DNA of 64,000 nt, from the NCBI RefSeq assembly GCF_000422945.1, contig NZ_AUHA01000002.1:310001-374000 (forward strand), in the 5' to 3' direction. The notes beneath the pieces were generated by a model, which saw only the letters and a list, made by a program, of their open reading frames with translations, did not search any database and was not told where the DNA came from. The DNA comes from Daejeonella oryzae DSM 19973 (lineage in GTDB: Bacteria > Bacteroidota > Bacteroidia > Sphingobacteriales > Sphingobacteriaceae). The first letter of the stretch is position 1. Each line of letters begins with the position of its first letter. Shown here piece after piece: positions 19,779 to 53,286 of this stretch. The position numbers and the translations under genes were made by a program.

Positions 19779-19813
19779 ATTACAATATTAAATTTGCCCA
19801 AACAGGTAATTTG

Positions 19814-19854: not shown

Positions 19855-19856
19855 CA

Positions 19857-19888: not shown

Positions 19889-19893
19889 CACTG

Positions 19894-19995: not shown

Positions 19996-20134
19996 TGAAA
20001 GTCATCAGATTACCGACTTTTCGAAGATAAGCTTGTTTTAAGATTTGAGATATTAAAACTGGGAATTTAGATTGCTTAATCTAAAACTTCTCCAGCTACT
20101 TATCTCCTTTCTAAACTGAGATTAAGTTGATGAA

Positions 20135-20171
20135 ATGAAATTGCGGTTTTCTGGAACCGCTTGGATTTCAT
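20135..20171 (+). promoter_or_regulatory. Hairpin between the riboswitch and the metH start
   Basis: Long imperfect stem: ATGAAAT / ATTTCAT outside and GCGGTT / AACCGC inside, with loop TTCTGG. It ends 25 bases before the metH ATG and lacks a clear T-run, so it may be part of a translation- or stability-controlling expression platform rather than an intrinsic terminator. Confidence 0.45.
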
Positions 20172-20196
20172 ATCTAAAATCTCATATCAAATAAAT

Positions 20197-23100: not shown

Positions 23101-23904
23101 GGAAGTTATCCGAAAATTTTCAGCGACAGCTTTGTAGGCGATGAAGCAAAAAAGCTTTTTGATGATGCCCAATTACTTTTAAAAAAGATTGTTGATGAGA
23201 AATTATTAAGGGCAAACGGTGTTATTGGTTTCTGGCCGGCAAACTCTGTTGGTGATGATATTGTTTTAGACTCTAATCTTTCGGGTAAACCGGGAGCGGT
23301 TATCCATACACTTCGCCAGCAGTCAGAAAAAGTTGCCGGTGAACCTTATTACGCACTAGCGGATTTTGTAGCCTCTAAAGAAAGTGGAATACAGGACTAC
23401 TTTGGCGGATTTGCGGTTACAACCGGATTAGGCTGCGACGAGCTGGTTACCGAATTTGAGAAAGATCATGATGATTACAACAGCATTATGACAAAAGCTC
23501 TTGCAGATCGTCTGGCAGAAGCTTTCGCAGAGCGGATGCACGAGCTGGTGCGTAAAGAATTCTGGGCTTATGCTCCTGAAGAAAGCCTCACTAATGAAGA
23601 ACTGATCAAAGAAAAATATGCCGGCATCCGCCCTGCACCGGGTTATCCTGCCTGCCCCGATCATACCGAAAAACGCACCCTGTTTGATTTGCTGGATGCA
23701 GAAAAAACAACAGGAATTCATCTGACAGATAATTTTGCCATGCACCCGGCCTCGGCTGTCAGCGGCTTTTATTTTGCTCATCCGGAATCACGCTATTTCG
23801 GGCTGGGAAAGATCGGTAAAGACCAGGTTGAAGATTACGCAATCCGCAAAAACATGTCTATTGACGAAGCCGAAAAATGGCTGAGTCCTAATTTAGGTTA
23901 TTAA
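20197..23904 (+). CDS. metH: Cobalamin-dependent methionine synthase MetH
   Basis: Methylates homocysteine using 5-methyl-THF through methylcobalamin. All four modules are present: the homocysteine domain ([10 protein letters not shown] near the start, zinc site [10 protein letters not shown] at about 313-322), the folate domain ([14 protein letters not shown], about 364), the cobalamin domain ([11 protein letters not shown], about 767, supplying the B12-ligating His) and the AdoMet activation domain (about 930-1235, [12 protein letters not shown]). ATG 20197 is preferred over an upstream TTG at 20161 because the latter lies in the leader hairpin. Controlled by the SAM riboswitch; metF follows 5 bases later. 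Confidence 0.97.
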
Positions 23905-23909
23905 AATAA

Positions 23910-24866
23910 ATGAAAATCACCGACCATATAAAAAACGCTGGAGGTAAAACTCTTTTCTCTTTCGAGCTGCTGCCGCCGGTTAAAGGACAAAGCATCCAGG
24001 GAATTTATGATGCAATAGATCCTTTGATGGAATTTAATCCCCCTTTTATTGATGTGACCTACCATCGGGAAGATTATATTTATAAACAGCATGAAAGCGG
24101 CTTACTTGAAAAAGTATCTTACAGAAAACGCCCCGGAACCGTAGCCATTTGTGCTGCAATCATGAATCGTTATAAAGTAGATGCTGTTCCGCATTTAATT
24201 TGCGGTGGTTTTACAAAAGAGGAAACAGAAAATGCCCTGATTGATTTGCAGTTTCTGGGAATAGACAATGTGCTTGTTTTAAGAGGAGATGCCCGCAAAG
24301 CAGATACTTCATTTATTCCTACTCCGGGTGGTCATGCTTTTGCAACCGATTTGCTTGAACAGGTTTACAATATGAATAACGGAAACTATCTTCACGAAGA
24401 TCATGACACTTCTTTCAGTACTAATTTCTGTATTGGCGTGGCCGGATATCCCGAAAAGCATTTTGAAGCCCCCAATATGAAATCAGATTTTAAATACCTG
24501 AAAAAGAAAGTGGAGATGGGTGCCGAATTTATTGTTACCCAAATGTTCTTCGATAATTCTAAGTATTGCGATTTCGTTAAATTATGCCGCGACAACGGAA
24601 TTCATGTTCCGATTATTCCGGGTTTAAAACCTATAACTTCATCCAAACAATTAATCAGTTTACCTAAAATGTTTCATATCGATATTCCCGAAGAGTTGAG
24701 CGAGGAAATACAGAAATGCAAAACAGAGGCGGATGTAAAAAAAGTTGGAATTGAATGGATGATCAACCAGTGTAAAGAACTGATGAGCTATGGAGCCCCA
24801 GTACTTCATTTTTATACGATGAGTAATCCGGGACCAACAAAAAAAATCGCGGAAGCTATTTTCTGA
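23910..24866 (+). CDS. metF: Methylenetetrahydrofolate reductase MetF
   Basis: Reduces 5,10-methylene-THF to 5-methyl-THF, the methyl donor for MetH directly upstream. Family features are seen: FSFELLPPVKG near the N-terminus with the catalytic Glu, a folate/FAD-binding LRGDARK, and GAEFIVTQMFFDN. 318 residues is typical for the bacterial enzyme. The 5-base gap to metH means it shares the SAM riboswitch. Its stop abuts the convergent HAD gene. Confidence 0.96.
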   Translation: MKITDHIKNAGGKTLFSFELLPPVKGQSIQGIYDAIDPLMEFNPPFIDVTYHREDYIYKQHESGLLEKVSYRKRPGTVAICAAIMNRYKVDAVPHLICGGFTKEETENALIDLQFLGIDNVLVLRGDARKADTSFIPTPGGHAFATDLLEQVYNMNNGNYLHEDHDTSFSTNFCIGVAGYPEKHFEAPNMKSDFKYLKKKVEMGAEFIVTQMFFDNSKYCDFVKLCRDNGIHVPIIPGLKPITSSKQLISLPKMFHIDIPEELSEEIQKCKTEADVKKVGIEWMINQCKELMSYGAPVLHFYTMSNPGPTKKIAEAIF

Positions 24867-25481
24867 TTAAAATCCGTTCAGTAACCCTTTCTGATTAAGA
24901 ATAGTATTCAGTTGTTCCGGTGAAATAAAATGAATACTCTCCCAGCCTATTTGCCGGGCGGCTTCGATATTCCGGAGATTATCATCTATAAACAGAAGTT
25001 CTTCAGGTTTCACCTGGTACCGGTCTGTCAGTATCTGATAAAATTCAGGATATGGTTTTCGATTCATTTCGGTTCCGGAAACCACTATGCCGTCGAACCA
25101 GTGCAAGAACTCAAAACGGTTTAAAGCGAGCGGAAATGTTTCTGCCGACCAGTTTGTTAAAGCATAAATTTTATACTTTTCTGTTGCTTTTAATTGCCTG
25201 AATATTTCTACGGTACCTCTTATTTCTCCGCCCAGCATTTCTTCCCAGCGATCGTAAAAAGCTCTGATGTTTGATTCATGTTCCGGATATTCCTGAACAA
25301 GGGTATCGGTAGCAAATTTTAAAGAACGCCCTGCATCCTGTTCTTCATTCCAGTCTGGAGTACAAATTGTATCGAGAAAATCCTGCATTTCCTTTTCATC
25401 AGCAAACAGTTTCTCGTATAAATAAACAGGATTCCAGTCAATTAAGACGGCTCCCAAATCAAAAACAATTGTATTTATCAT
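24867..25481 (-). CDS. HAD-superfamily hydrolase (subfamily IA)
   Basis: 204 residues with HAD motif I FDLGAVLID (residues 7-15), in which the second Asp of the usual DxD is replaced by Ala-Val, the variant seen in HAD-IA YihX-like proteins. Motif II is ALTNWS, a conserved Lys lies in NRKPYPEFY, and motif IV is FIDDN. It probably dephosphorylates a small sugar phosphate or similar metabolite. It lies 5 bases after thrC and so may be the last gene of the threonine operon. Confidence 0.85.
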   Translation of the reverse strand: MINTIVFDLGAVLIDWNPVYLYEKLFADEKEMQDFLDTICTPDWNEEQDAGRSLKFATDTLVQEYPEHESNIRAFYDRWEEMLGGEIRGTVEIFRQLKATEKYKIYALTNWSAETFPLALNRFEFLHWFDGIVVSGTEMNRKPYPEFYQILTDRYQVKPEELLFIDDNLRNIEAARQIGWESIHFISPEQLNTILNQKGLLNGF

Positions 25482-25486
25482 ATAAA

Positions 25487-26791
25487 TTATTTCAGCATAT
25501 ACTTTTTAAAATCCTCAAAATCATTGTTAATAGCAACCTTTAATTTTGTTCTGCTTTCCAATTCTTTAACCTGTTCAGGTACCCTAATGCTTCGGGAAAT
25601 ATTGTCTGGAAAAACTTCCGGAAATTTGCAGGGATGAGCAGTTGACAAAAAGACATTCGCACTTTTATCTTCAGGGTGATGAATCTGCCATTTCTGTAAA
25701 GCCCGGAAGGCAATTGCGGTATGCGGACAAACCACATATTTGTAATCTTTGTAAACCTGCCGTATGCTTTCAATCGTATCCTCATCCGTAAAGCTGTATG
25801 CGGTAACCAGCTTCTTTAAATCGCTGACATTTTCATCAAATAAATCCATTATGCGAACCCAGTTACTGGGATTACCCACATCCATGGCATTAGAAAATGT
25901 TTGAACAGATGGTTTTGGTTGATATTTTCCATGCGTTAAAAATGCCGGAACCGTATCGTTTACATTTGTAGCCGCTAAAAATTGTTTAACCGGCAAACCC
26001 ATTTTCCAGGCCAGCAAGCCCGCTCCTATATTTCCGAAGTTACCGCTTGGCACAGAAAATACTACATACTTTTTACCCTGTTTAAGCAATTGAGAATATG
26101 CATTGAAGTAGTAAAAGGTTTGCGGAATAAGCCTGGCAATATTGATTGAATTAGCAGATGTCAGCCTGTATTTCTCATTTAATTCCCGATCGGAAAAAGC
26201 TTGTTTAACTAAAGCCTGGCAATCGTCAAATGTTCCCTCTATTTCTACCGCCCTGATATTCTGCCCATGTGTGGTTAATTGTAATTCCTGAATCGGGCTT
26301 ACTTTACCTTTGGGATATAAAATGGTAACCTGAGTATTTGGAACACCTGCAAATCCCAGGGCGACCGCTCCGCCAGTATCGCCCGAAGTGGCAACCAATA
26401 CATTCAATTCCTTTTCCCCCTCTTTAAAAAAATGAGCCATAATCCGGCTCATAAAACGGGCGCCAAAGTCTTTAAATGCTAAAGATGGTCCGTGAAACAA
26501 CTCAAGCACATACAGATTATCCTCCAGATGAATTAACGGAGCCGGGAAATTTATCGCATCACCCGTAATTTTTTTTAAAATTTGTGAAGGAATTTCATCC
26601 TTTAAAAAAGCCGAAGCTATTTCAAACGCAATATCCTGAAAAGAATAATCAGCCAGATTCTTAATAAATTCCGGCTTCAGAAATGGAATTTCAGCAGGCA
26701 TATATAAACCTTTATCCTGAGGAAGACTATTGAAAATAGCTTCTTTAAAAGAAACCCGAAGCGCTTTATTTTGAGTACTGTAAAATTCCAT
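25487..26791 (-). CDS. thrC: Threonine synthase
   Basis: Converts O-phosphohomoserine to threonine with PLP. The PLP lysine is in LAFKDFGARFM; ATSGDTGGAVALGF supplies the phosphate loop, and VPSGNFGNIGAGLLAWKMGLPV the second PLP-binding loop. At 434 residues it is of the class found in Bacteroidota and Proteobacteria. It is the third threonine gene in a leftward thrA-thrB-thrC operon behind an attenuator. Confidence 0.96.
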   Translation of the reverse strand: MEFYSTQNKALRVSFKEAIFNSLPQDKGLYMPAEIPFLKPEFIKNLADYSFQDIAFEIASAFLKDEIPSQILKKITGDAINFPAPLIHLEDNLYVLELFHGPSLAFKDFGARFMSRIMAHFFKEGEKELNVLVATSGDTGGAVALGFAGVPNTQVTILYPKGKVSPIQELQLTTHGQNIRAVEIEGTFDDCQALVKQAFSDRELNEKYRLTSANSINIARLIPQTFYYFNAYSQLLKQGKKYVVFSVPSGNFGNIGAGLLAWKMGLPVKQFLAATNVNDTVPAFLTHGKYQPKPSVQTFSNAMDVGNPSNWVRIMDLFDENVSDLKKLVTAYSFTDEDTIESIRQVYKDYKYVVCPHTAIAFRALQKWQIHHPEDKSANVFLSTAHPCKFPEVFPDNISRSIRVPEQVKELESRTKLKVAINNDFEDFKKYMLK

Positions 26792-31572: not shown

Positions 31573-31691
31573 TATATTCATGTAACTAAATTAAGGCCTC
31601 TTATTAACTAATTATCATTTAATAAATTATTATATGAATTTAAAATAAAATAAATATATTGTAAGTATTAATTACACCTGTAAAAGTTATA

Positions 31692-32795
31692 ATGAATACA
31701 GAATTCAGATTTACTATGTCAGTTGAGAATTCTATACAATATGAAGTAAGAAGGATTTCTAATTTATATAAATTGGATAATCCGATTCTAGCTGACTATA
31801 TTAAAACGAGAAAAGCCTTTTGCATAATCGACTCTAATTTACATCACTACGTCAGACAGCTTGAAGATTATTTTATCGCACATCATATAGAAGCATATTA
31901 TTTCTATCTAACAATCACAGAACACGAGAAAAACATAAAATCTATTATGGATTTTAGTTCTTTCTGTTTCAAACACCAAATTAGCCGTCGCGATACTATT
32001 ATCGCTTTCGGTGGTGGCATCATCTGTGATTTGGGCGGCCTCTGCGCAAATTTATTAAGACGTGGCACTCCTTGTATTAAAATACCAACAACACTTCTTG
32101 GAATTATTGACGCTTCAGTGGGAGTTAAAAATGGAATTAATTTTGCTGGAAGCAAAAACTCAATAGGCACTTATTGTCCTCCCGAAGCAGTTCTTATAGA
32201 CTTAAGCTTTCTTCAAAGTCTTTCAAAAAAAGAAATTAAAAGCGGTTTAGTTGAGATGATAAAAATCATAGCGTTGAAAGACATTGATACTTGGAATTTA
32301 TTGAAAAGGAATATGTCCAAATTTTTGAATAAAGATTTTGATAGTCAAGCAATCGAACTAATAGACAGGTCAATAGCTTTTATGTTATCTGAACTTAGAA
32401 GCAATTTATTTGAAGATAATTTAAACCGAATTGTAGATTATGGTCATGAATTCGGGCATCTAATTGAGATAATAACCAATCATGAACTCTCGCATGGGGA
32501 GGCGGTTGGAATAGGCATGTTATTATCAAACCATATTGCCTTTAAGAAGGGATTAATGGATCAAAGTGATTATGAAGATTTTCAATTGATTTATGACAAA
32601 TTACAACTGCCCTCTTGGCACAATTTACTTACATCGCAAAAGTTATATGATCAAAAGGATTTCATTAGTAGACATAAAGGCGGAAATTTCAACATTGTAG
32701 CTTTACAGAAAATTGGTTCCCCTATTTTTATTAATCAGTTAAGCTTGGATGACATTGAATATGCTGTTAATATCTTAGCTACAGATGTAATTTAA
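31692..32795 (+). CDS. Sugar phosphate cyclase, EEVS-like (DHQ synthase superfamily)
   Basis: Expected to use NAD and zinc to cyclise a phosphorylated ketose, by analogy 2-epi-5-epi-valiolone synthase acting on sedoheptulose 7-phosphate. NAD loop GGGIICDLGG (107-116) and RRGTPCIKIPTTLLG (123-137) lead to IDASVGVKNGINFAGSKN (139-156) and LGTY/GTYCPP, which resemble EEVS more than AroB. The zinc ligands appear as E188 (GLVEMIK), H252 (YGHEFGH) and H268 (LSHGEA). Residues 231-249 (MLSELRSNLFEDNLNRIVD) also match the EEVS pattern, whereas HEFGHLIE retains a His that AroB has and EEVS usually replaces with Pro. 367 residues. First gene of a rightward island operon; housekeeping AroB is unlikely from these differences. 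Confidence 0.8.
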   Translation: MNTEFRFTMSVENSIQYEVRRISNLYKLDNPILADYIKTRKAFCIIDSNLHHYVRQLEDYFIAHHIEAYYFYLTITEHEKNIKSIMDFSSFCFKHQISRRDTIIAFGGGIICDLGGLCANLLRRGTPCIKIPTTLLGIIDASVGVKNGINFAGSKNSIGTYCPPEAVLIDLSFLQSLSKKEIKSGLVEMIKIIALKDIDTWNLLKRNMSKFLNKDFDSQAIELIDRSIAFMLSELRSNLFEDNLNRIVDYGHEFGHLIEIITNHELSHGEAVGIGMLLSNHIAFKKGLMDQSDYEDFQLIYDKLQLPSWHNLLTSQKLYDQKDFISRHKGGNFNIVALQKIGSPIFINQLSLDDIEYAVNILATDVI

Positions 32796-32815
32796 TCAAA
32801 TAAGAGTTAAAAATC

Positions 32816-33829
32816 ATGATTGATTGTTTAGTTTTTGATATAGGAGGAACTAATTTACGTGCTGGAAGATATTTGTTCAGAAAGAATAAGCTTGTAGAAG
32901 TTATAAACAAGCCAACTCCAACTATTTGGAATACAAACGATAAAAGTGAAATTTATTACAACTACTTAATCACCAATATGGAGGAACTGACAAAAAAAAT
33001 ATTTCCGGAATGTTCTCCAAAAGTAGTTACAATTGCCTTCCCGGGTCCAATCACTTTAGATGGTGAAATTCTACGTACTCCCACAATCTGGGGTAACAAA
33101 TTTATAGCTAACTCCTCTTTTGTTTCAGATCTAAAAAGCGTCTGGCCAAATTCAGTAGTGAATATTATAAATGATGTTTCAGCTGCAGGCTATTTCTTGT
33201 GTAGTAAATACAGTCAAGATTTCTGTGTAATTACAGTTAGCTCTGGGATTGGTAGTAAGCTTTTTATCAACGGGAAACCATATACTGGTGAGACGGGACG
33301 CGGTGGTGAGATTGGGCATTGGGTGACCGATAATTCTAAAGATGCTTTTAAGTGTGAATGTGGAGGGAAAGGACATTTAGGAGGAATTGCATCGGGTAGA
33401 GGAGTGTTAGCCATGGCAAAAAATCAAGCTAAAATATATCCCGCAATTTTTCAAAAGTCTTTGATAGCTCAACGCACAAAGGGCAATCATGCTATTATAA
33501 CTAACGAATTGCTTGTAGAGTCATATTTGGAAGAAGATGAGTGGACAAAAGTCGTAATAAACAAATCAGCCAAAGAACTAGCCAAAGCAATTGCTCTGAT
33601 ACATACTACCACGGGAGTTGAACTATTTATAATCATTGGCGGTTTTGGAATTGCCTTAGGTGAACCATATCGAAAGATACTGGCAACTTTTGCTAAAGAC
33701 TTCTGTTGGGATTTAGGGCAGGATTGGAATGAAATGATAAAGTTAGGCCCTAAAAACACTGAAATGGGTTTGTTGGGAGCGGGCATATTCTCAGAAACAG
33801 TAAGAAGCTCAATCTATGAAAATAACTAG
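32816..33829 (+). CDS. ROK-family kinase, candidate cyclitol kinase
   Basis: Sugar kinase of the ROK/glucokinase fold. The phosphate loop DIGGTNLRAGRY is at 8-19, the catalytic Asp is D120 (NDVSAAG), and the sugar-binding E165 and metal ligand H168 lie in GGEIGHW. The zinc motif reads CECGGKGHLGG (180-190): two of the three usual Cys are present and the third is His. ROK homologues act as C7-cyclitol 7-kinases in the validamycin and acarbose pathways (ValC, AcbM), which fits a gene 20 bases after a cyclase. A plain glucokinase or N-acetylmannosamine kinase remains possible. The end overlaps the next gene by 14 bases. Confidence 0.78.
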   Translation: MIDCLVFDIGGTNLRAGRYLFRKNKLVEVINKPTPTIWNTNDKSEIYYNYLITNMEELTKKIFPECSPKVVTIAFPGPITLDGEILRTPTIWGNKFIANSSFVSDLKSVWPNSVVNIINDVSAAGYFLCSKYSQDFCVITVSSGIGSKLFINGKPYTGETGRGGEIGHWVTDNSKDAFKCECGGKGHLGGIASGRGVLAMAKNQAKIYPAIFQKSLIAQRTKGNHAIITNELLVESYLEEDEWTKVVINKSAKELAKAIALIHTTTGVELFIIIGGFGIALGEPYRKILATFAKDFCWDLGQDWNEMIKLGPKNTEMGLLGAGIFSETVRSSIYENN

Positions 33830-34913
33830 GTACGCGTATTCTAAACAATTCGGAATTGACCATGATATATTGTTCGAAGACCTTAGAAGAATGATATTAA
33901 ATGGTGATTATGTTCTTACCAAAGAGGTTACAGTTTTTTTAAATAACTTTTCAAATTTCATCCAAGCCGGTTTTGCATGTGGGACCAATTCGGGCACAGA
34001 TGCTTTAATATTAGCTATGAAAGTTTTGAATATAGGTCCTGGTGATGAAGTAATCACTCAAGCTAACACGTTTAATGCAACTGTTGCGGCAATAAAATTT
34101 GTAGGCGCTACACCTGTATTAGTAGATGCTGATGAAAACACTTTCTTAATGAATGTCGCTCAGATCGAAGAGAACATTTCAAGCCGATGTAAAGCGATCA
34201 TCCCTGTTCATCTTTATGGGAAACCCTCGCCAATGGAGCAAATTACCGAGCTTGCAAGTAAGCATAACATTTATATCATCGAAGACTGCGCACAAGCACA
34301 CGGTTCAAAGTTGAATGGCAAGAATGTTGGTACTTTTGGCAAAATCGGATGTTATAGCTTTCATCCGAGTAAAAATTTGGCTGCTGCTGGAGATGGTGGT
34401 TGTATTGTCACTAATGATGCTGAATTGTTTGAAAAATGTCAACAGGTTTCAAGCTTGGGACAAAAGGGGCAAAACAATCATGTAGTGATGGGATTCAACA
34501 GCAAGCTTGATGCTTTACAAGCCAGAATCTTGGATTGGAAATTGCCTTTTCTATCTGGGTGGAATATCGCCCGAAACCAAATTGCCGATCGTTACTATAA
34601 ACAATTAAGCCAACTTCCAATTAAATTTCAGCAAAGAGCTTCCAATGAATTTCATACTTATCACCTCTTAACCATAAGAACCGAAAAAAGGAATGAGTTA
34701 CAGGAATTTTTAAAAGTAAAAAATATTGATACAATAGTTAGGTATCCAACTCCGATCCATTTACAAAAAGCTTTCGAGAAAGAAGGGTGGAAAAAAAATC
34801 AATTCCCGGTTGCCGAAAAACTTGCCAATGAGCTTTTATGCTTACCGATAAGGCCCGATATGAGCACAGACGAGATCGATTATGTGTGTGACAATGTTAA
34901 ACATTTTTTCTGA
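33816..34913 (+). CDS. DegT/DnrJ/EryC1/StrS aminotransferase
   Basis: PLP-dependent aminotransferase that converts keto sugars or keto cyclitols to amines. PLP Lys186 is in SFHPSKNLAAAGDGG, Asp157 in IIEDCAQAHG contacts the pyridine nitrogen, and GTNSGTDALILAM (57-69) forms the cofactor phosphate site. 365 residues. It overlaps the upstream kinase by 14 bases and is followed 13 bases later by a NAD-dependent enzyme. In aminocyclitol clusters this family installs the amine on a ketone made by a neighbouring dehydrogenase. The substrate here is inferred from context only. Confidence 0.9.
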   Translation: MKITRYAYSKQFGIDHDILFEDLRRMILNGDYVLTKEVTVFLNNFSNFIQAGFACGTNSGTDALILAMKVLNIGPGDEVITQANTFNATVAAIKFVGATPVLVDADENTFLMNVAQIEENISSRCKAIIPVHLYGKPSPMEQITELASKHNIYIIEDCAQAHGSKLNGKNVGTFGKIGCYSFHPSKNLAAAGDGGCIVTNDAELFEKCQQVSSLGQKGQNNHVVMGFNSKLDALQARILDWKLPFLSGWNIARNQIADRYYKQLSQLPIKFQQRASNEFHTYHLLTIRTEKRNELQEFLKVKNIDTIVRYPTPIHLQKAFEKEGWKKNQFPVAEKLANELLCLPIRPDMSTDEIDYVCDNVKHFF

Positions 34914-34926
34914 AAATTTCAGCAAA

Positions 34927-36129
34927 ATGAAATCCTTGCGCAAACTTACGATACTTGGTGGTAGTAGTCCGTTTACAGTAGAGCTTATCAATTGTATTCG
35001 TGAGGGTAATTTAGAAAATCAAATAGGCCCCTACCATCTTTTTCTTTTTGGACGGAATGAGAGAAATCTCCAACTTTTATTTGAGTATAGTCGTTTTAAT
35101 CTTGATAAGATTGGCTGGAAAGTGGATTTTTCCACTAATATAAATCATGCCCTTTATGGTTCTTCTGTAGTTATTCATCAGAGCAGATATGGAGGGTTAG
35201 AGGGCAGATTAGATGATGAGATTTTTGCTAGTAAAATGGGCGTTCCTTCTGACGAAACGTTAGGACCTTCTGGATTAAAATCAGCATTAAGGATGGCTTC
35301 TGATTTAAAAGTATTAGCAAGAAAAATCAGTTCGCTTTGCCCCGAAGCATTAATAATCAATTTAACAAATCCATTAAGTATTGCCGTTTCTATTTTGCAT
35401 CATGAAGGTGTATCAAATATATTAGGTATTTGCGAATTGCCACTTGTTACTTTGGATAAAGTAGCAGATATATTAAAAATCCCAACCGAACAATTGCATT
35501 GGGAATATTCGGGTTTGAATCACAGAGGATTTATCCATGGAATTAAGCTACAAGGACAGGACGTCATGCCTTTATTTTTAGATCGCATCTCTATTTCAGG
35601 TTTCGATGGATTTCATAATTCCTTGATAGAAAACTTAGAAGCTATTCCCCTAAAATATTTCCATTTATTTTATAAGGCTCACTTTAATCAAGTTAGGGCA
35701 AATCAAGTAAAGCTTATTGGGGAAAGCATAATTGATGAACTTATCCTAAACCCCATTAAATCGCCGGTAAGTCTAAAACACAGAACCATGGATTGGTATA
35801 GAAAAGGAATAATTCCTGTTTTACAAAGCATCAATTCTTCTAAATCTGCCATTCTTATTATTAATAAACCAACAATAAATACTCTTACAATTGAAAGCAA
35901 AGCTTATGTTTCAAATGATAAAATTACGTTGATTAAATCCGCGAAACCTCCTGCACAGGTAAGGAAATGGCTAGAAATTTTTGTGGAACATGAAAAAGCT
36001 ACTTTTAAAGCAGCAATGGATCCATCACCAAATAATATAAGTAGTGTTTTAAATTCAGACCCGTTGGTTGCTTCTTCCAACGTAAAAGCTATTTGTAAAT
36101 CTATTTTAAAAACATATAATAGAACATGA
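34927..36129 (+). CDS. GH4-type NAD-dependent hydrolase/dehydrogenase-like protein
   Basis: 400 residues of the glycoside hydrolase 4/LDH-like fold, which binds NAD and Mn and oxidises C3 of a sugar. Seen: N-terminal nucleotide loop LTILGGSSPFTVEL (7-20), DETLGPSGLKSALR (109-122), INLTNPLSIAV (144-154), the likely metal ligand Cys169 in LGICELP and His199 in YSGLNHRGF. ATG 34927 is preferred over an upstream ATG at 34882, which lies within the aminotransferase. In an island without substrate-uptake genes, it may act as an oxidoreductase on a cyclitol instead of as a catabolic glycosidase. The downstream gene overlaps by 4 bases (ATGA). Confidence 0.8.
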   Translation: MKSLRKLTILGGSSPFTVELINCIREGNLENQIGPYHLFLFGRNERNLQLLFEYSRFNLDKIGWKVDFSTNINHALYGSSVVIHQSRYGGLEGRLDDEIFASKMGVPSDETLGPSGLKSALRMASDLKVLARKISSLCPEALIINLTNPLSIAVSILHHEGVSNILGICELPLVTLDKVADILKIPTEQLHWEYSGLNHRGFIHGIKLQGQDVMPLFLDRISISGFDGFHNSLIENLEAIPLKYFHLFYKAHFNQVRANQVKLIGESIIDELILNPIKSPVSLKHRTMDWYRKGIIPVLQSINSSKSAILIINKPTINTLTIESKAYVSNDKITLIKSAKPPAQVRKWLEIFVEHEKATFKAAMDPSPNNISSVLNSDPLVASSNVKAICKSILKTYNRT

Positions 36130-37082
36130 ACCGACCTACGCTAAATATTGGAATAATAGGTTGTGGAAGGATGGGAAAGATCAGGGCGGAAGCTACAAAG
36201 AATGCCAATCAAAATATATTGGCAGCGTTTGATATCAACAATCAAATGCTTTCAGATTTCAAATTATTATTCCCCAACTCTCAAGCGATAGATAAAATCG
36301 ATAATTTCCCATGGAATAATATCGATATAATTTTTATTTGTTCTCCTCCTTCATTGCACTTAACTCATATCTCAATTGCTGTTAAACACAAAAAGGCATT
36401 TTTCGTTGAAAAGCCACTTTCAATAAATGCAATCGAAATAACCCGTATAATTAAAGAGATAGAAACAAAACAAATAATCAATGCTGTTGGATATATGAAC
36501 AGATATCGAGCATCTATACAACATATAAAAAACCTTCCCTTCTTAGGCGTTTCAAGTTATTGGATAAACAAAATGTACAAAGTTCCCTGGTGGGAAAATA
36601 TTAATGAATCTGGAGGCCCTTTAAACGAACAAGCCACCCATTTATTTGATTTATATCGTTACCTCATTGGAGATGTATTTGAAGTTTTTGCAAACTGTGC
36701 CTTAAGTAATTATAGTTTTCCAACTACTATAAGTGTTAACCTCAAGTTTATAAAAGGCCAAGTTGGAAATATCCTTTACAGTTGCGACGCAAAGTCAAAA
36801 AAAATAGGGATGGATTTATTTACTGAAGAAGATAAGATTTCATTAGAAGGGTGGGATTTCAATCTAAGAAATCAAACGTTTCCGATTTTATCTGCTCAGG
36901 ATATATTCGACTTAGAAACTAAAACATTTTTCAACGCTGTTATAGAAAACAAGCAACAATTGGTTCTTTCTGACATAAAAGATGCATTAGATACCCAATT
37001 CTTAGTAGACGCTGTAAATTTATCAATCAAAACACGAAGTGTCGTCAACATTAAAGAATTTGTGACATCTAATTCAATATAA
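36126..37082 (+). CDS. Gfo/Idh/MocA-family oxidoreductase
   Basis: 318 residues. The N-terminal Rossmann loop GIIGCGRMGKIRAEA (8-22) and the family EKP motif (FFVEKPLSI) mark the NAD(P) domain. The C-terminal domain has GGPLNEQATHLFDLYRYL, with the conserved active-site Glu/His pattern. This family includes inositol and scyllo-inosose dehydrogenases and sugar 3-dehydrogenases such as NtdC. Its ATG overlaps the upstream stop, so it is translationally coupled in the same operon and could generate the keto group for the aminotransferase or reduce a cyclitol ketone. Confidence 0.87.
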   Translation: MNRPTLNIGIIGCGRMGKIRAEATKNANQNILAAFDINNQMLSDFKLLFPNSQAIDKIDNFPWNNIDIIFICSPPSLHLTHISIAVKHKKAFFVEKPLSINAIEITRIIKEIETKQIINAVGYMNRYRASIQHIKNLPFLGVSSYWINKMYKVPWWENINESGGPLNEQATHLFDLYRYLIGDVFEVFANCALSNYSFPTTISVNLKFIKGQVGNILYSCDAKSKKIGMDLFTEEDKISLEGWDFNLRNQTFPILSAQDIFDLETKTFFNAVIENKQQLVLSDIKDALDTQFLVDAVNLSIKTRSVVNIKEFVTSNSI

Positions 37083-37163
37083 TAATTTGCAAAATATGGT
37101 TGCAATGTATAATCTGTTGATAATATAATCTTTACAGTAACGCTAAAGAAGAAAAAAAAAGTT

Positions 37164-37511
37164 ATGAAGTACTCATTTGAAGATCAAGATTATAATTTCG
37201 AGATCGCCCACAATGGTAATGCTCCGATTTACTCTTTAAGGGTGGCTACTTTATCCTCAAATTTTGCTTTTAATTTTTTAGACTTTGTCAAGATGCCCGT
37301 GGCCTCCACCATTGGTAAGCACACTCATTTCACTGATAGTCAGGAAATTTATATAATAATATCCGGAAATGGTGAAATGATAGTTAATGAAAAAAATTAC
37401 ATAGTTAAAAAAGGTGATGTTATAGTGAATCCCATTGGTGGAACTCATCAAATAAAAAATATGGGAAGTGAAGAAATTTGCTTTGTAGTAATTGAAACCC
37501 AAGTTCATTAA
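37164..37511 (+). CDS. Small single-domain cupin
   Basis: 115 residues, one cupin barrel. The metal site is intact: H53 and H55 (HTH), E61 in DSQEIYIIISGNGE, and H95 in GGTHQIKN. Small cupins of this kind serve as isomerases, epimerases, dioxygenases or sensors. Here the position after two dehydrogenases and beside a cyclase makes an epimerase or isomerase of a cyclitol ketone plausible (inference). It is 81 bases after the previous gene, a longer gap than the others, so a weak internal promoter is possible. Confidence 0.8.
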   Translation: MKYSFEDQDYNFEIAHNGNAPIYSLRVATLSSNFAFNFLDFVKMPVASTIGKHTHFTDSQEIYIIISGNGEMIVNEKNYIVKKGDVIVNPIGGTHQIKNMGSEEICFVVIETQVH

Positions 37512-37555
37512 ATCTAATTAGCTTTATTTCATTACAATTAATTTTAGGTACAGTT

Positions 37556-38635
37556 ATGATATCATTCAATATACTAGCCAACCCAAACTGGAAACGAGGC
37601 TTACATCCTTTTTACCGATGGAAAAACCAATTGGAGAACAATGGTATTAAGGTTCAAATATACTTTAGCCATAAAGACAAAAGGCTTCGGAACTCAGACA
37701 ACATTTTTATTTTTTCAAGGTACTTCGAACAAGGTTGGCAGAATATTCAGAAAAGGACTCCTGAAAATGAAAGTGAATTAATAAAATATTTATCAGATTT
37801 AAAAAATTATGCCGGCGAACTGATTTGGTTTGACGAAGCTGCGTCCTCCGGCTCCGCAGATTTTCCGATTATAGGTCATGTTGATAAGTTTGTAAAGAAA
37901 CAAGTGTTAAAAAAGATGGATTATTATAAAGAGCCTGTTAATACTGCTGATTTACGTATTTGGGTAAATTCAACTATAAAACAAACACAGGTAACTCCCT
38001 TCATACCTTGTCCGGCAAATGAACTTCACAAAATAAAAGCTGGGTGGAATACCTCCGTCTACGATTATCGTTACATTAGAAATAGATTAATGCCAATAAG
38101 TAACTATCTCAGCTATAAGATTTATAGCCCAAGATATACTGACATTAATGCCAAACGAAATCTTGATGTCGCATTCAGAGGAACTACTGCTTATAAAAAC
38201 AATATTGAAGTTTCTCTTCAAAGAAATAAAATTATTACTATTCTAAATGATATCGATTTAAAAATTGCACAAGGCAGAAGGATAACAAAGGCAAAATATT
38301 TCAAAGAATTACAATCAGCTAAAATCAGTTTGAGTCCGTTTGGATTTGGCGAAATTTGTTATCGTGATTTTGAAACCTTTATCGCTGGAGCGATATTGGT
38401 AAAACCTTCATTAGATCATCTGACTACATACCCAAATGTATTTATTCCAAATGAAACCTACATACCAGTATCATGGGATTTAACAGATCTGCAGGAAAAA
38501 ATAGAAGATATTTCCATTAATTACAACCAATATAAAGATATCGCTCGTAACGGACAAAATCGATTTAAGACATTGTTAAATAATTCAGAATATTTTGTTG
38601 AAGCAATAAATCGCATTCTTGATAGGACTTTCTAA
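37556..38635 (+). CDS. Glycosyltransferase, group 1-like (exostosin-type C-terminus)
   Basis: 359 residues. The N-terminal half shows no clear motif; the C-terminal half has SLSPFGFGEICYRDFETFIAGAILVKP and HLTTYPNVFIPNETYIPVSWDLTDLQEKI, the pattern of group 1 or exostosin-like glycosyltransferases. It is the last rightward gene of the island and would transfer either an ordinary sugar or the cyclitol product. It converges with the leftward genes within 63 bases. Assigned from motif resemblance, so family placement is moderate. Confidence 0.65.
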   Translation: MISFNILANPNWKRGLHPFYRWKNQLENNGIKVQIYFSHKDKRLRNSDNIFIFSRYFEQGWQNIQKRTPENESELIKYLSDLKNYAGELIWFDEAASSGSADFPIIGHVDKFVKKQVLKKMDYYKEPVNTADLRIWVNSTIKQTQVTPFIPCPANELHKIKAGWNTSVYDYRYIRNRLMPISNYLSYKIYSPRYTDINAKRNLDVAFRGTTAYKNNIEVSLQRNKIITILNDIDLKIAQGRRITKAKYFKELQSAKISLSPFGFGEICYRDFETFIAGAILVKPSLDHLTTYPNVFIPNETYIPVSWDLTDLQEKIEDISINYNQYKDIARNGQNRFKTLLNNSEYFVEAINRILDRTF

Positions 38636-38697
38636 AAAGATTGCAGAACAAATCTTCACACAGAGGTAAGGCGGAAACTTCGCTTGTCATTCCAAAT

Positions 38698-39753
38698 CTA
38701 CACTGATTTGGGTTCACATACAGTATAAAGATTGTTATAGTAACCAACCATATCGCTAATACTTTCGTAGATATTATGTTTTATCATTCCACCTGTACTT
38801 AGAATTTTAGAGTTATCACCTAAATGATGGTCAATTTTACCATTTAAGAGTGCCAATTCGGTGGTTTTTATCTCAAAGCTGTCTTTCTTTTTATCAAAAA
38901 TTAATCTCAAGCATTCACTAAGAATGCTGTCTATCATTACTGGCACCCCCGAACAAATATTATAAGTCTCATTATAATTTCCTCTATTTAAAAGTAATGC
39001 TATATAACTTGCAACATCTCTGACATCCACAAAATCTCTAATAGAATCCAAGGAACTGGTTTGCAATTCAGTTATTAATGGATCATTTTTGATTCTTAAT
39101 AATTCACTTACAAATCGTCCGCATACATGACGCTCATCCTGGCCTGGTCCAACAATATTAAACACCCTTAAAACTAAATAGGGAATATGGAATTGTTCAC
39201 AAAAAGATTTAACTATAGTTTCTTCGGTTGCCTTTGCAAATTGGTATAGATCGGCGGGATTACAGATGTCTGACTCTTTGAAAGGAATGTCTTCAATTTT
39301 TGAGGGTAATCCATAAATACCACCGCTCGAGATTGCTACAAAAGGAATATTTTTAAAGTGTTTATTACAAGCCCAAAGCAAATTAAGGGTTCCTTGAATG
39401 TTTGTGCTAAACAACTTTCCATACCCATCGCCTTTCAGTCCAGACGCCAGATGAATAATTTCTGTGGGATTAAAATCAAGCATTACATCTTCTATTTTTG
39501 TCTTATCCAAAATATTCGCCTGTAAATATCTGTATTTGTCGTTTTCTAACAATTTGAGGAGTTCATCAGGGAGTGGCGCATTTGATAGTATATTACCTTT
39601 TATATGAACCGAATGTGTGAAGCTCCTAGGAATCTCTTCGGACCTGCCAATCCCCAAAATTTGTATGTCCTCAAATTCTGCTAACAATGAAGAAGTAAGG
39701 TATCTTCCCAAAAAGCCTTGGGAGCCGGTAATTAGAACTCTTTTCTTATTCAT
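38698..39753 (-). CDS. NAD-dependent epimerase/dehydratase (extended SDR)
   Basis: 351 residues: Rossmann loop VLITGSQGFLGRYL at the start, Ser-Gly ISSGGIYG followed by YQFAKATEE, which holds the Tyr and Lys of the YxxxK site. Extended SDRs of this type interconvert or dehydrate NDP-sugars. It overlaps the next SDR by 8 bases (its start lies inside the upstream gene's end) and is the last gene of the leftward half of the island. The substrate is unknown. Confidence 0.85.
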   Translation of the reverse strand: MNKKRVLITGSQGFLGRYLTSSLLAEFEDIQILGIGRSEEIPRSFTHSVHIKGNILSNAPLPDELLKLLENDKYRYLQANILDKTKIEDVMLDFNPTEIIHLASGLKGDGYGKLFSTNIQGTLNLLWACNKHFKNIPFVAISSGGIYGLPSKIEDIPFKESDICNPADLYQFAKATEETIVKSFCEQFHIPYLVLRVFNIVGPGQDERHVCGRFVSELLRIKNDPLITELQTSSLDSIRDFVDVRDVASYIALLLNRGNYNETYNICSGVPVMIDSILSECLRLIFDKKKDSFEIKTTELALLNGKIDHHLGDNSKILSTGGMIKHNIYESISDMVGYYNNLYTVCEPKSV

Positions 39754-40660
39754 TCTGAAATGATAGGATAGTTTTTTTCAGCCCATTTATTAATGATGTT
39801 TCCGGTTTCCAATCCAATTCCGTTTCTGCTTTCATATTGTTTGATATTAAAAGATCAATATCAGCAAATCTCGGTCGGTCAGATTTGGAGTTTTCACAAA
39901 TATTTCCAGAGGTATGCATAATTTCTTGAATCATTGTTGCTATTTGTTTTGCGCTCGTCCCAATACCCGTTCCAATGTTAAATATCTCGAAACCTTTAAA
40001 TTCAGATAATAATGCGTTTTTTATTGCCCTCACCAAGTCACCGACATAGCAATAATCTCTAACTGAAGAAAGGTTAAATAGTCTTAAATCACCCCCTTCT
40101 AATGTTTTTTTATAAACATCATACATTAATGATTTCTTGGACATACTGGGCCCATATATGGAAAATGGTCTAAGGATTTTAAATTTAATAGATTTAGAAA
40201 TATGATACACATAAGCTATTTGCTCAATAGCTACCTTTGATACGCCATAAGGTGATAGAGGCTGAAGTAAGCTATACTCTGAAACCGGATTGAAGATAGG
40301 TCGTCCGTAGACTTCTGCAGATGAGATGATGATCACTTTATCAATCTTTATATCTTTACATACGTTCAACAGTGATGTTGTTCCTAAAGTATTTACCCTT
40401 AAACTTTCTATAGGGCTTTCAAATGAATCTCGAACACTGTTAAGGCCGGCTAAATGTATTACCACGTTTACATCGGATAGAACTCTTCTCAATTGATTAA
40501 TATCGAATAGGTCCACTACAATTAAATCAGTAGAGGTAATAACATTCTCATCGGTTCCTGTAATTAAAACAGTATTGATTATTTCATCCTTAAAATCACG
40601 TCTCAAGTGTGTGCCAATAAAACCTCCAGCCCCAGTAATCCCAACCTTCAATTTTCCCAT
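39746..40660 (-). CDS. NAD-dependent epimerase/dehydratase (UDP-glucose 4-epimerase-like)
   Basis: 304 residues. Nucleotide loop VGITGAGGFIGTHLRRDF (residues 5-22), the middle segment IHLAGLNSVRDSFE, and the catalytic pair YGVSK with a Ser in ISSAEVYG. The RPFSIYGP segment typical of extended SDR is present. Paired with the adjacent SDR it may carry out two steps of one NDP-sugar or NDP-cyclitol modification. Only 2 bases separate it from the methyltransferase gene. Confidence 0.86.
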   Translation of the reverse strand: MGKLKVGITGAGGFIGTHLRRDFKDEIINTVLITGTDENVITSTDLIVVDLFDINQLRRVLSDVNVVIHLAGLNSVRDSFESPIESLRVNTLGTTSLLNVCKDIKIDKVIIISSAEVYGRPIFNPVSEYSLLQPLSPYGVSKVAIEQIAYVYHISKSIKFKILRPFSIYGPSMSKKSLMYDVYKKTLEGGDLRLFNLSSVRDYCYVGDLVRAIKNALLSEFKGFEIFNIGTGIGTSAKQIATMIQEIMHTSGNICENSKSDRPRFADIDLLISNNMKAETELDWKPETSLINGLKKTILSFQNE

Positions 40661-40662
40661 AA

Positions 40663-41523
40663 TTAAATCGGCTTTGTTATATATAAGATAGTTAAAGGGC
40701 CAACTTTGGGGAAATATCGTCCCAACTTATATCTCAGAAAATTTGATATGGCACTATTTATTTTAAAAAAAATAGAAGCATGTTTGCCAATTAAGGGGCT
40801 CACCAATCTCATCATAACGCTTAAGAGTGCGAAATTCACAACCTTGCCAATAAGTAGATATGGAACTAGAGAATGAGTTGTTTTATGAATAACCTGAAGT
40901 TGTGCTTTTTGCAACAATTTTGCAAGAGACTTCTCAGAATACAACCACCTATGCTGTGGTAATCCTAAAGGAAACAATCTGTACCAATAACTCGAAATTC
41001 CTCCAACAACTCCAACTTCAAAACTAATATAACCGTTTTGTTTTAAGGCCTTTTTCATTTGTTCAATAGAAAGGAAGGGGTCTGGAAAATGCGCTAAGAG
41101 ATCGACATGAAAAATCACGTCAAACTTTTTACTATTAAAATCAAAAGTTTCTATAAATCCTTGATACCCCATAATTTTATAAATATTTTTCATGTAACCC
41201 AATCGTAAGTAATTGGGCTCAAGTCCAAAAACTTCGTATCCGAACTGGGCAAATGCATGAAGTTGATGCCCGTTGCCTGAACCAACCTCTAACAAAATCA
41301 TATTCTTACCAATTTTTTTATTTAACCACCGAGCTTTGTAATAGGAAGATAGTTTATAAAATGGATCAGAATGAGAATCCATTTCCCAGTTGATAGTTTC
41401 AATATCAGGTAATGGATTGCAGAATAATAATCCGCACTCTGGACATACTAGCGAGTTATATCCTTTTTCTTGATAGACTGATTTACTGGAATGCTGATGA
41501 CACAAAAAACATTTATTTTCCAC
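40663..41523 (-). CDS. SAM-dependent methyltransferase with N-terminal zinc knuckle
   Basis: 286 residues. The start carries CFLC and VCPECGLLFC, a four-cysteine N-terminal knuckle; the class I SAM site is LLEVGSGNGHQLHAF, and a post-I segment FDVIFHVDLLAHFPDP is present. This layout is common in polysaccharide and natural-product clusters, where the enzyme methylates a sugar or a lipid-linked intermediate. It is 3 bases after the GT4 gene in a tight leftward run. Confidence 0.84.
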   Translation of the reverse strand: MENKCFLCHQHSSKSVYQEKGYNSLVCPECGLLFCNPLPDIETINWEMDSHSDPFYKLSSYYKARWLNKKIGKNMILLEVGSGNGHQLHAFAQFGYEVFGLEPNYLRLGYMKNIYKIMGYQGFIETFDFNSKKFDVIFHVDLLAHFPDPFLSIEQMKKALKQNGYISFEVGVVGGISSYWYRLFPLGLPQHRWLYSEKSLAKLLQKAQLQVIHKTTHSLVPYLLIGKVVNFALLSVMMRLVSPLIGKHASIFFKINSAISNFLRYKLGRYFPKVGPLTILYITKPI

Positions 41524-41526
41524 TTT

Positions 41527-42696
41527 TTATTTTTTTTTTGTTGCAAGCTCAAGAAATTCGATTTCCAATTTTTTATTCATTGAATCAGGTGAAAAACAAT
41601 CATCAAACCTGTTTTTTGCAGCCTCACCAAGCTTAAATCTAAAGTGTTCGTTCTTAATCAATTTTTCTAAGTGATAAATTAGCCTATCTGGAGAATTAAT
41701 ATCAAACAATAGGCCTGTTTTATTGTCTATGACCATTTCGGGAATACCTCCAACTGTTGAAGCAATCAATGGCTTTCCGATTGACATTCCCTCAAGTATA
41801 CTATTTGGGAGAGAATCATACCTACTTGCATGTACCTGAATATCAATAACGTTAAAAATATTCCCGATATATCCTGGGTAACTTAAAAACTGTACCCTAG
41901 ATTTTAAGTTATATTCTTGGACTAATTCTGTTAATCTCTTTAAGAATTGAGTGTCCCGAGGATACCCTATTATCCATAACTCGATATAAGAATATTTATT
42001 TGCTAATTGATGGAAGGCATCGATCAGGAGATCCTGACCTTTAGAATGGACAATTTTTGCAATCTGACCAATGATTAACTTTTTCGCTTTAGTTTTACTT
42101 ACTTTTAGTTTTTCTATTTCCTCGTCATAAGAAAATTGAAGTTTTATGGGACTAGGTATTACTAAAAATTTTGGATTATCTGAACCAATCCATGCCTGGA
42201 GCTCAACCGTCCTAAACCGAGAATCACAAATTATTGTATCGCTAAATTTCAAAAAGTGTCTTGCTGTTTTGGAATATAAGCTATTGTTATTCTGCTTATG
42301 ATATAAGGTTGTAACTATTGGAATATTTATCAATTTCTTTACCAACGCCCCAAAAATACCTCCACGTGGCAGCCGACAATCCAAAACATCTATTTTGTGT
42401 TGATTTATTATTTTAAGAATGGACACAAAGTAGATGATTGCATTAGCCAAAGACAGGAACTTATGCAATGGTTTCCAAATTTTGCCCTGCTTAAATTTAA
42501 TCACCCTGACATAACTAACCTGAATCTGAGCCCTTTTGAAATGATTCATTGCGGGATTAGATTGGTACAATGTGCAAACTCGGATATTAAATAATGTTTT
42601 ATCTAAACCATCGCAGATATTCAACAGTCTAGTTTCATCACCACCAAAACCACTCGAAGAGTGAAGAGAAAGAATATTTGTTTTTTTTTTCTGCAT
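41527..42696 (-). CDS. GT4-family glycosyltransferase
   Basis: 389 residues, GT-B fold. The N-terminal segment ILSLHSSSGFGGDETRLL fits the acceptor side; the C-terminal domain carries LIIGQIAKIVHSKGQDLLIDAF and the EX7E signature region PNSILEGMSIGKPLIASTVGGIPEMV. It transfers a sugar from an activated donor. It lies 11 bases after the nucleotidyltransferase, which could supply that donor. Confidence 0.9.
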   Translation of the reverse strand: MQKKKTNILSLHSSSGFGGDETRLLNICDGLDKTLFNIRVCTLYQSNPAMNHFKRAQIQVSYVRVIKFKQGKIWKPLHKFLSLANAIIYFVSILKIINQHKIDVLDCRLPRGGIFGALVKKLINIPIVTTLYHKQNNNSLYSKTARHFLKFSDTIICDSRFRTVELQAWIGSDNPKFLVIPSPIKLQFSYDEEIEKLKVSKTKAKKLIIGQIAKIVHSKGQDLLIDAFHQLANKYSYIELWIIGYPRDTQFLKRLTELVQEYNLKSRVQFLSYPGYIGNIFNVIDIQVHASRYDSLPNSILEGMSIGKPLIASTVGGIPEMVIDNKTGLLFDINSPDRLIYHLEKLIKNEHFRFKLGEAAKNRFDDCFSPDSMNKKLEIEFLELATKKK

Positions 42697-42707
42697 TATA
42701 CCATCAA

Positions 42708-43460
42708 TTAGTTAAGTTGTCCTCTAAGCTTAATAATTGTTTTCAGTAATGACCATTTTTCCATCTGGTTGGTTTTCAATAAGCTGAGGTTATCATTAAT
42801 ATCTGTCCATATTGCCTTATGTGGAAAGGTATTAACTTTGAAATGGGATTTAATCAAAGTTTTACACAAAAGAGGAACATCTATCCTCCTATCCCTGTAA
42901 TGTTCGCGAACTATTTCTATAGCAGAATTACTTAGAACATAAGTTCCACTTGACACAAATATCTTTTTTAAAGGTTTTTCAAGATAATCAATAATCGTGG
43001 TATCATGTGTAATCAATTCTCCAAATGGAATTCTGAAAGACTCTTCATGTGCTGCAATTGTCATATCCGCCCCAGATTTAATATGGGCATCTACTAAGTT
43101 TTTTAAATTTAGATTTAAAAGATTATCTACATTTAAAATTAATAAAGGTTCTTTATTGCAATCAACCCACTGGACGGCCCCTATAGTTCCTAAAGGAACG
43201 TTTTCAGTTAATAATTCTAATTTTATTTTAAGTTTGCATTCATAAACAACCTGCAATTCTTTTATATAATTAATTAGATCAGGCTCATTTACAGAAACCG
43301 ATATCCACAGGGTTTTAAATTTAAAAAGATAAGCATACAAAATATTTAATTCTATAAGTGGAATATCAAAAACTTTAATTAAAGCTTTATGGGTATTACT
43401 ATTCGTTGAAGCCCGCATTCTGCTGGATTGCCCCCCAGCCATAATTAAAACATGATTCAT
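42708..43460 (-). CDS. NTP-transferase domain protein (sugar/cyclitol-1-P nucleotidyltransferase-like)
   Basis: 250 residues of the GT-A-like nucleotidyltransferase fold. The start reads VLIMAGGQSSRMRAST, the nucleotide-binding loop, with the usual Lys in THKALIKVFDIPLI; the metal Asp is in LLILNVDNLL. It is shorter and more divergent than RmlA or GMP-forming ManC. ValB in the validamycin pathway is a comparable enzyme activating valienol 1-phosphate. First gene of the leftward half of the island. Confidence 0.78.
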   Translation of the reverse strand: MNHVLIMAGGQSSRMRASTNSNTHKALIKVFDIPLIELNILYAYLFKFKTLWISVSVNEPDLINYIKELQVVYECKLKIKLELLTENVPLGTIGAVQWVDCNKEPLLILNVDNLLNLNLKNLVDAHIKSGADMTIAAHEESFRIPFGELITHDTTIIDYLEKPLKKIFVSSGTYVLSNSAIEIVREHYRDRRIDVPLLCKTLIKSHFKVNTFPHKAIWTDINDNLSLLKTNQMEKWSLLKTIIKLRGQLN

Positions 43461-43598
43461 TTTAAACCAGTAATATAAATTTATAAATAGTTTAATTCTA
43501 TAAGTTTAAATATATTTATTTTTTTAAACTTTTGTCATGAGATCAACTCCAATATTTAATAAAGTTATATGCCAGTTAATCAAAAGAATCAAAGTAAA

Positions 43599-52909: not shown

Positions 52910-53034
52910 GGATCACCTAAATATGCTGCAATGTTAAGAAATCAGAAAGGGAATCGGAATTTTAAATGATGGAGGAAAAAAGTAATAAGAAAAATTTGCA
53001 GGAAAATTGATTTTGTGATTTATATCATAGGTTA

Positions 53035-53281
53035 ATGGCAGTTAATTTAGATAAAATGATTGCAGCATTTAAAGAATTTATAGACCCAACTAACACTCTA
53101 AATTTTCCCGATGATGCTTATAAAGGTTTGATGTTACAGGGATTAGAAGCATCAACCTACTATAGTAAACATCTTAACTCTACAGAAACAAAAACATTAT
53201 AATGGAGAAGTTATCTCTTTAGAAAATAATTTTATCGGTATATTATCTGATATTACGCGTTTAAAAATTAGAGGATATTAA
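53035..53281 (+). pseudogene. Small lineage-specific gene with an internal frameshift
   Basis: ATG 53035 opens a 55-residue frame ending TETKTL at TAA 53200-53202. From there another frame runs without stop as HYNGEVISLENNF and ITRLKIRGY to TAA 53279-53281. A one-base slip in the A-run at 53189-53194 would join them into a protein of about 80 residues. No recognised domain. It fills most of the gap between the flippase-like gene and the next broken gene; the remaining bases at 52910-53034 show nothing I can assign. Confidence 0.4.
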
Positions 53282-53286
53282 CAAAG

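Follow-up and report, generated by a model that had tools for sequence, protein, structure and literature searches.

A probable C7 aminocyclitol glycoside island in Daejeonella oryzae, headed by a deep-branching relative of sedoheptulose 7-phosphate cyclases

The window analyzed here, a 64,000-nucleotide stretch of Daejeonella oryzae DSM 19973 (G000:C1:310001-374000; host genome 3.45 Mb in 10 contigs, 99.5% complete), carries an island of twelve intact open reading frames (ORFs) at positions 31692-43460, the first of which encodes a sugar phosphate cyclase (SPC). In our best explanation, to which we assign a probability of roughly 0.58, the island is a horizontally acquired pathway in two modules for a C7 aminocyclitol (carbasugar) glycoside. 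Its gene content, linkage, and insertion were read directly from the genomes, and the class of the cyclase from its sequence, phylogenetic trees, and predicted fold. One C7-cyclitol compound serves as a diabetes drug and another as a crop fungicide; to our knowledge, the characterized pathways come mainly from actinomycetes. If the explanation is true, a compact, conserved ten-gene pathway of Bacteroidota, its cyclase lying apart from the known branches, would broaden the search for such compounds. Genes of the 2-epi-5-epi-valiolone synthase (EEVS) type are not confined to actinomycetes; Candidatus Burkholderia kirkii is one example (PMC8599487).

Gene content and insertion of the island

The twelve genes, preliminarily described as two convergent operons, are all present as ORFs, seven on the plus strand (31692-38635) and five on the minus strand (38698-43460), with intergenic gaps of -32 to +81 bases that are mostly overlaps or a few bases long. 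The features are as follows.

31573..43568, no strand: inserted island of about 12.0 kb between rsgA and dtd (empty site in same-genus genomes)
31692..32795, plus: sugar phosphate cyclase, sedoheptulose 7-phosphate (S7P) cyclase-like, deep lineage with one orthologue in genome G461 (Pfam DHQ_synthase N and C domains, tree, predicted fold)
32816..33829, plus: ROK-family kinase, candidate cyclitol 7-kinase (Pfam, solved relatives, motifs, ROK genes beside plasmid S7P cyclases)
33816..34913, plus: DegT/StrS pyridoxal phosphate-dependent aminotransferase, candidate for keto-cyclitol amination (Pfam DegT/DnrJ/EryC1/StrS; 69% to G461)
34882..36129, plus: GH4-like NAD-dependent enzyme (Pfam PF02056 and PF11975; Cys/His of the presumed metal site retained)
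36126..37082, plus: Gfo/Idh/MocA oxidoreductase, inositol-dehydrogenase-like (Pfam, NCBIfam, relatives, motifs)
37164..37511, plus: small Cupin_2 protein, candidate epimerase or isomerase (Pfam; 68% to G461)
37556..38635, plus: putative glycosyltransferase (sub-threshold PF13524; no counterpart in the G461 locus)
38698..39753, minus: extended short-chain dehydrogenase/reductase (SDR2), NDP-sugar (nucleoside diphosphate sugar) reductase/epimerase-like (Pfam Epimerase family; 51% to G461)
39746..40660, minus: extended SDR (SDR1), NDP-sugar epimerase/dehydratase-like (Pfam Epimerase family; 54% to G461)
40663..41523, minus: S-adenosylmethionine-dependent methyltransferase (Pfam; no counterpart in the G461 locus)
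41527..42696, minus: GT4 glycosyltransferase (GT4 family match; 47% to G461)
42708..43460, minus: sugar-1-phosphate nucleotidyltransferase (NTase; NTP_transferase match; 50% to G461)

The Pfam, NTP_transferase, and GT4 matches uphold the enzyme families named in the preliminary description, except at 37556, where the glycosyltransferase assignment is only sub-threshold (PF13524, 22.8 bits; cut-off 25) and the single-sequence structure model is unusable (pLDDT 31.5).

The twelve-gene stretch is an insertion between rsgA and dtd, because these two genes adjoin each other (at most about 120 bases apart, or overlapping) in 19 of the 19 other genomes of the genus, whereas about 12 kb separate them in the window. 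The cyclase was absent from all 19 (threshold 1e-45). Family searches found no integrase among the twelve genes, both tRNAs of the window lie far from the island, and a promoter and terminator scan gave no excess over shuffled sequence. GC content is 0.32-0.36 inside the island and 0.37-0.42 alongside; GC alone is weak evidence of insertion, since a second low-GC stretch lies outside the island (window 52001-54000, 0.337) and the island of the second carrier, G461, shows no contrast to its surroundings.

That second carrier is one genome of another genus in the same family, in which ten of the twelve genes recur with order and orientation kept (locus L007, 19.9 kb). One run comprises the cyclase, ROK kinase, aminotransferase, GH4-like enzyme, Gfo/Idh enzyme, and cupin, and the convergent run SDR2, SDR1, the GT4 enzyme, and the NTase. 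Apart from the values listed above, identities between the carriers are 60% for the ROK kinase, 60% for the cyclase, 55% for the Gfo/Idh enzyme, and 50% for the GH4-like enzyme; the housekeeping aspartokinase-homoserine dehydrogenase is 68% identical in G461, 75% in two Pedobacter genomes, 70% in Mucilaginibacter, and 45-52% in five other Bacteroidota genomes, values that fit a host in the Sphingobacteriaceae. The catalytic motifs that we presume should be expected in these enzymes are retained in both carriers. The methyltransferase (40663) and the glycosyltransferase at 37556 had no match within the 19.9 kb of L007, so the suggestion that all twelve genes might co-occur elsewhere stood for a block of ten and not for these two. 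Their grouping goes beyond chance, given that the ten genes are clustered in this further genome too and that all 19 other genomes of the genus have an empty site.

Cyclase searches at thresholds of 1e-40 to 1e-50 (own genome excepted), in draws that overlap, brought up no third carrier: 1 of 1 was positive in the own genome, 1 of 41 among relatives, 2 of 201 in the family, 2 of 400 in the order, 1 of 395 in the class, and 1 of 395 in the phylum, every positive being the window or G461. Within the genus of G461 the cyclase occurs in one of six genomes, G461 alone. Draws around other genomes gave, in the order of a Hyphomicrobium metagenome-assembled genome, two matches among 249 that are EboD-like (L094) and AroB-like (L095) by motif; in the family of a Chitinophaga genome (1/137) and the order of a Dyadobacter genome (1/138), the single match was the centre genome's own cyclase, and these loci (L019 and L008, respectively) fall in the EboD clade. 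An exact-peptide scan of genome contigs kept 80 of 98 relatives, the best of them 32% identical to the query across most of its length, although it could miss a cyclase as close as that of G461, because the latter reads NGINY and not NGINF. No relative of the aminotransferase was seen on viral contigs. With ten genes kept in G461 and no third carrier in these draws, the unit appears to be rare, mobile on an evolutionary scale, and transferred as a block.

Position of the cyclase among sugar phosphate cyclases

By sequence, predicted structure, and pocket residues, the cyclase is nearest the S7P cyclases. Its best solved relatives are ValA (7e-54) and desmethyl-4-deoxygadusol synthase (DDGS; 1e-42), ahead of dehydroquinate synthase (DHQS) and 2-deoxy-scyllo-inosose synthase (DOIS). 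The predicted model (pLDDT 85), built on an alignment that contained EboD rows and G461 and no ValA, is closest to ValA (Z 45.6, rmsd 1.9, 356 aligned), followed by the S7P cyclase of mycosporine/gadusol synthesis, DDGS (Z 44.1), and then by DHQS (at most 41.2) and DOIS (34.7). A set of Glu, His, His, and Asp/Lys/Asn is invariant in a 13-row alignment, and both carriers have Met, Leu, and Asp, as do all four EEVS-type rows, at sites with Lys, Val, and Asn in AroB rows. The DDGS rows differ in having Glu and Ala in place of the Leu and Asp of the window cyclase, at sites that we take to be ValA 267 and 281 and to discriminate EEVS from DDGS. A published account describes two fingerprint sites by which EEVS and DDGS can be told apart (PMC4426668).

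An aromatic rather than a cyclitol product would follow if the enzyme were a paralogue of a DHQ or aminoDHQ synthase. The closest NCBIfam model is indeed aroB, at 227.9 bits against a cut-off of 305 and with no model at its cut-off, but this model gives the tested S7P cyclases much the same score, and the six rows tested (S7P cyclases, DDGS, and related sequences) likewise remain below every NCBIfam cut-off; the EboD of L008 reaches PRK06203. A grouping of the cyclase with two AroB rows was rejected by the approximately unbiased (AU) test (p 0.002), a comparison somewhat unfair to this alternative because the AroB rows did not form one clade in the free tree. Furthermore, the Lys/Arg/Asn of AroB is Met/Asn/Asp in the window, and the island holds no other shikimate-type gene. 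The one other SPC of the genome at E < 0.001 is an AroB (G000:C3:376859-377632) adjoining a prephenate-dehydratase-like ORF, as read by eye; no EboD was found in the genome. An AroB origin was rejected on the AU test together with this separate AroB, and we regard the aromatic route as highly improbable. The preliminary description had staked its case on a cyclase that does not group with AroB, is not the only AroB of its genome, and keeps linkage to its neighbours, and at the genome level it was right on all three.

Another possibility is that the cyclase acts on a hexose phosphate, such as glucose 6-phosphate, and yields a C6 aminocyclitol like 2-deoxy-scyllo-inosamine, as in aminoglycoside-type pathways. 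One top match of the aminotransferase is named glutamine-scyllo-inositol transaminase, the Gfo/Idh enzyme is closest to inositol dehydrogenases, and the second His of the cyclase motif GHxxGH is common to both DOIS rows. However, the fold comparison puts DOIS behind DHQS, the DOIS rows carry Lys and Glu at the sites of the window's Met and Asp, and the AU test rejected a DOIS grouping (p 0.0066), on which ground DOIS identity was dismissed; a C6 product is quite improbable.

The SPC trees had 29-30 rows, among them four EEVS-type and two DDGS rows and no reference for 2-epi-valiolone synthase; branches were long, and the rows of the window and of G461 deviate in letter composition from the alignment. 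In these trees the two cyclases pair at 100/100 on a long stem. Their lineage stands beside the S7P cyclases in three trees (support 92/76, 93/86, and 94/91), and the S7P cyclases exclude it (96/88, 95/87, and 97/89). In the AU test, placement with EEVS had p 0.013 with DDGS in the set and a borderline 0.061 without it, and placement with EEVS and DDGS together had p 0.065. The preliminary label, EEVS-like, is therefore apt in that the enzyme is of the S7P-cyclase type, is not AroB, and is not the genome's only SPC, but it fits less well to a lineage on its own deep branch outside EEVS, subject to that borderline p value. The cyclase is probably not a plain EEVS, judging from this deep separate branch with one orthologue and from the motif GHEFGH of both carriers, with His where EEVS rows have Pro. 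There is a good chance that it represents a new class of SPC. The island allows a test of whether this His/Pro change in the cyclase pocket alters product stereochemistry.

One row, L093 (Streptomyces microflavus plasmid, 2854-3969), a 'DHQS family' protein, has a very long branch, for which it was left out of two later trees, and was placed outside every named SPC class.

Partner enzymes and the proposed pathway

The ROK kinase adjoins the cyclase, in keeping with the phosphorylation step proposed earlier and with other S7P-cyclase loci: three of four plasmid S7P-cyclase loci have a ROK gene no more than 5 kb from the cyclase (Rhizobium rhizogenes, L003; Streptomyces clavuligerus, L004; Agrobacterium vitis, L005; not Streptomyces NBC_00467), compared with 0 of 80 contig-scan loci, a control that is slightly generous because some of these loci extend less than 5 kb from their cyclase. 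The 7-kinases AcbM and ValC are themselves ROK-like (PMC9200736). Although the cyclase stands beside ROK in all three of these uncharacterized plasmid loci as in the island, their cyclases are 31-38% identical to that of the window and belong to another branch, and no GH4, Gfo/Idh, or cupin match lies nearby. The amination step of the preliminary description likewise has its enzyme in the DegT/StrS aminotransferase, which is 44% identical to one in the S. clavuligerus locus.

The GH4-like enzyme is closest to 6-phospho-glucosidases and shows the motifs GIC and NH in each carrier, with Cys, His, and Tyr at the expected places; we take this Cys and His to be metal ligands. Since GH4 enzymes oxidize adjacent to the elimination site and the nearest relatives act on 6-phosphates, a 7-phosphate cyclitol would be a plausible substrate. 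On plasmids only distant GH4 relatives were seen, the named ones mostly 6-phospho-beta-glucosidases. Inositol dehydrogenases are nearest among the named relatives of the Gfo/Idh enzyme. No epimerase of the vicinal oxygen chelate (VOC) type, presumably the family of ValD/AcbO, was seen among the island genes, so the epimerisation step proposed earlier lacks its usual enzyme, and the cupin may take its place; L088 likewise has a cupin next to its S7P cyclase.

From these families we infer the substrates, step order, and product. Module 1 (31692-37511) would yield a C7 aminocyclitol 7-phosphate: the cyclase would form a keto C7-cyclitol from sedoheptulose 7-phosphate, the C7 hydroxyl of this cyclitol would be re-phosphorylated by the ROK kinase, the cupin would shift either the keto group or a stereocentre, NAD-dependent oxidation or reduction of the 7-phosphate and possibly its dehydration (unsaturation) would fall to the GH4-like and Gfo/Idh enzymes, and the aminotransferase would place an amine on the ketone. 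In module 2 (38698-43460), the NTase and two SDRs would make a modified NDP-sugar, whose sugar moiety the GT4 enzyme would attach to the aminocyclitol. The glycosyltransferase at 37556 and the methyltransferase may be decorations of the window's strain only. If true, the chemistry of the steps assigned to the GH4-like enzyme and the cupin would be new.

The validamycin and acarbose clusters (ValA/AcbC, ValC/AcbM) resemble the island by family in an S7P-cyclase-type enzyme and a ROK kinase, and presumably also share its aminotransferase, dehydrogenase, nucleotidyltransferase, and glycosyltransferase classes. They differ in that the island lacks a C1 kinase, a phosphatase, and a recognized pseudoglycosyltransferase, adds the GH4-like enzyme and the cupin, and has its cyclase on a separate branch; we know of no GH4 in the known clusters. 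On their logic, the NTase would instead make an NDP-carbasugar from the C7-cyclitol and the GT4 enzyme would transfer the pseudosugar into a small molecule or surface glycan. The enzyme classes match, the NTase and GT4 enzyme belong to the conserved ten, and nucleotidylation of valienol 1-phosphate by an AcbR-type enzyme is known from a report on acarbose (PMC9200736). In that pathway, however, nucleotidylation requires AcbU, a C1 kinase, and AcbJ, a C7 phosphatase, to act first, and neither class is among the twelve genes, although such genes could lie elsewhere in the genome, where no search for them was made. The NTase relatives are of the heptose/mannose 1-phosphate nucleotidyltransferase type (weak, E ~4e-8), and both SDRs resemble NDP-sugar reductases/epimerases, so that NTase and SDRs are like NDP-hexose or NDP-heptose enzymes. 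Activation of the cyclitol itself to an NDP derivative, as first proposed, is less likely in an island that lacks both of these enzymes, and a route on this logic seems unlikely.

Several observations weigh against a two-module C7 aminocyclitol pathway. Only two carriers are seen; the twelve-gene island has neither a phosphatase nor an exporter; the aminotransferase matches nucleotide-sugar aminotransferases (QdtB, one of its best solved relatives) as well as the scyllo-inositol transaminase. The cyclase falls outside the EEVS rows in free trees and has GHEFGH, VKNGINF, HKGG, and IGM where these have GHxFSP, KTGVN-like, HRDG-like, and IDM motifs, so its substrate or product may differ from that of EEVS. 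Finally, a common clade with EboD was not rejected (AU p 0.149), and EboD shares VKNGINF, HxGG, and the His that follows GHxx, as would be expected if the cyclase were EboD-like and the island made a cyclitol akin to the ebo product and not a carbasugar. Yet the free trees place the lineage with the S7P cyclases, and the island has no ebo-type neighbours such as the TatD, UbiA, TIM-barrel, and phosphodiesterase genes of the L008 EboD locus; we give this alternative only a slim chance. Returning to the C7 aminocyclitol glycoside, we propose tentatively, at somewhat less than even odds, that the window cyclase and its orthologue form a new SPC class, sister of all known S7P cyclases, and open an undescribed pathway of Bacteroidota with the GH4-type NAD enzyme as a biosynthetic cyclitol-phosphate dehydratase/oxidoreductase, the cupin replacing the epimerase, and a new aminocyclitol glycoside as the product.

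Related loci

Among the matches listed from the open-licence literature, no C7-cyclitol pathway of Bacteroidota was reported besides the ebo operon, a system with an S7P-cyclase-superfamily enzyme described for Bacteroidetes (PMC5133447), with whose operon table L008 agrees gene by gene. EboD belongs to the same broad half of the tree as the window cyclase and has some motifs in common with it, but its operon has different neighbours and it forms a separate 16-row clade (100/100) with the window cyclase outside; for the EboD labels, 29 of 80 loci were inspected by motif, 16 by tree, and one by operon (L008).

Three plasmid loci merit mention in their own right. L088 (Streptomyces sp. NBC_00467, 5947-13080), an uncharacterized-looking cyclitol locus, has an S7P cyclase followed by cupin, aminotransferase, ABC-transporter, and phosphotransferase genes. 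L005 (A. vitis, 11944-19465) has an S7P cyclase, ROK, dehydrogenases, a sugar phosphate isomerase/epimerase, and an MFS transporter, with acyltransferase genes not far away. L003 (R. rhizogenes pC6.5b, 14812-25773) carries the S7P cyclase closest to the window's among plasmid matches (37.6%), with ROK, TIM-barrel, methyltransferase, and glycosyltransferase genes, and is flanked by transposase genes.

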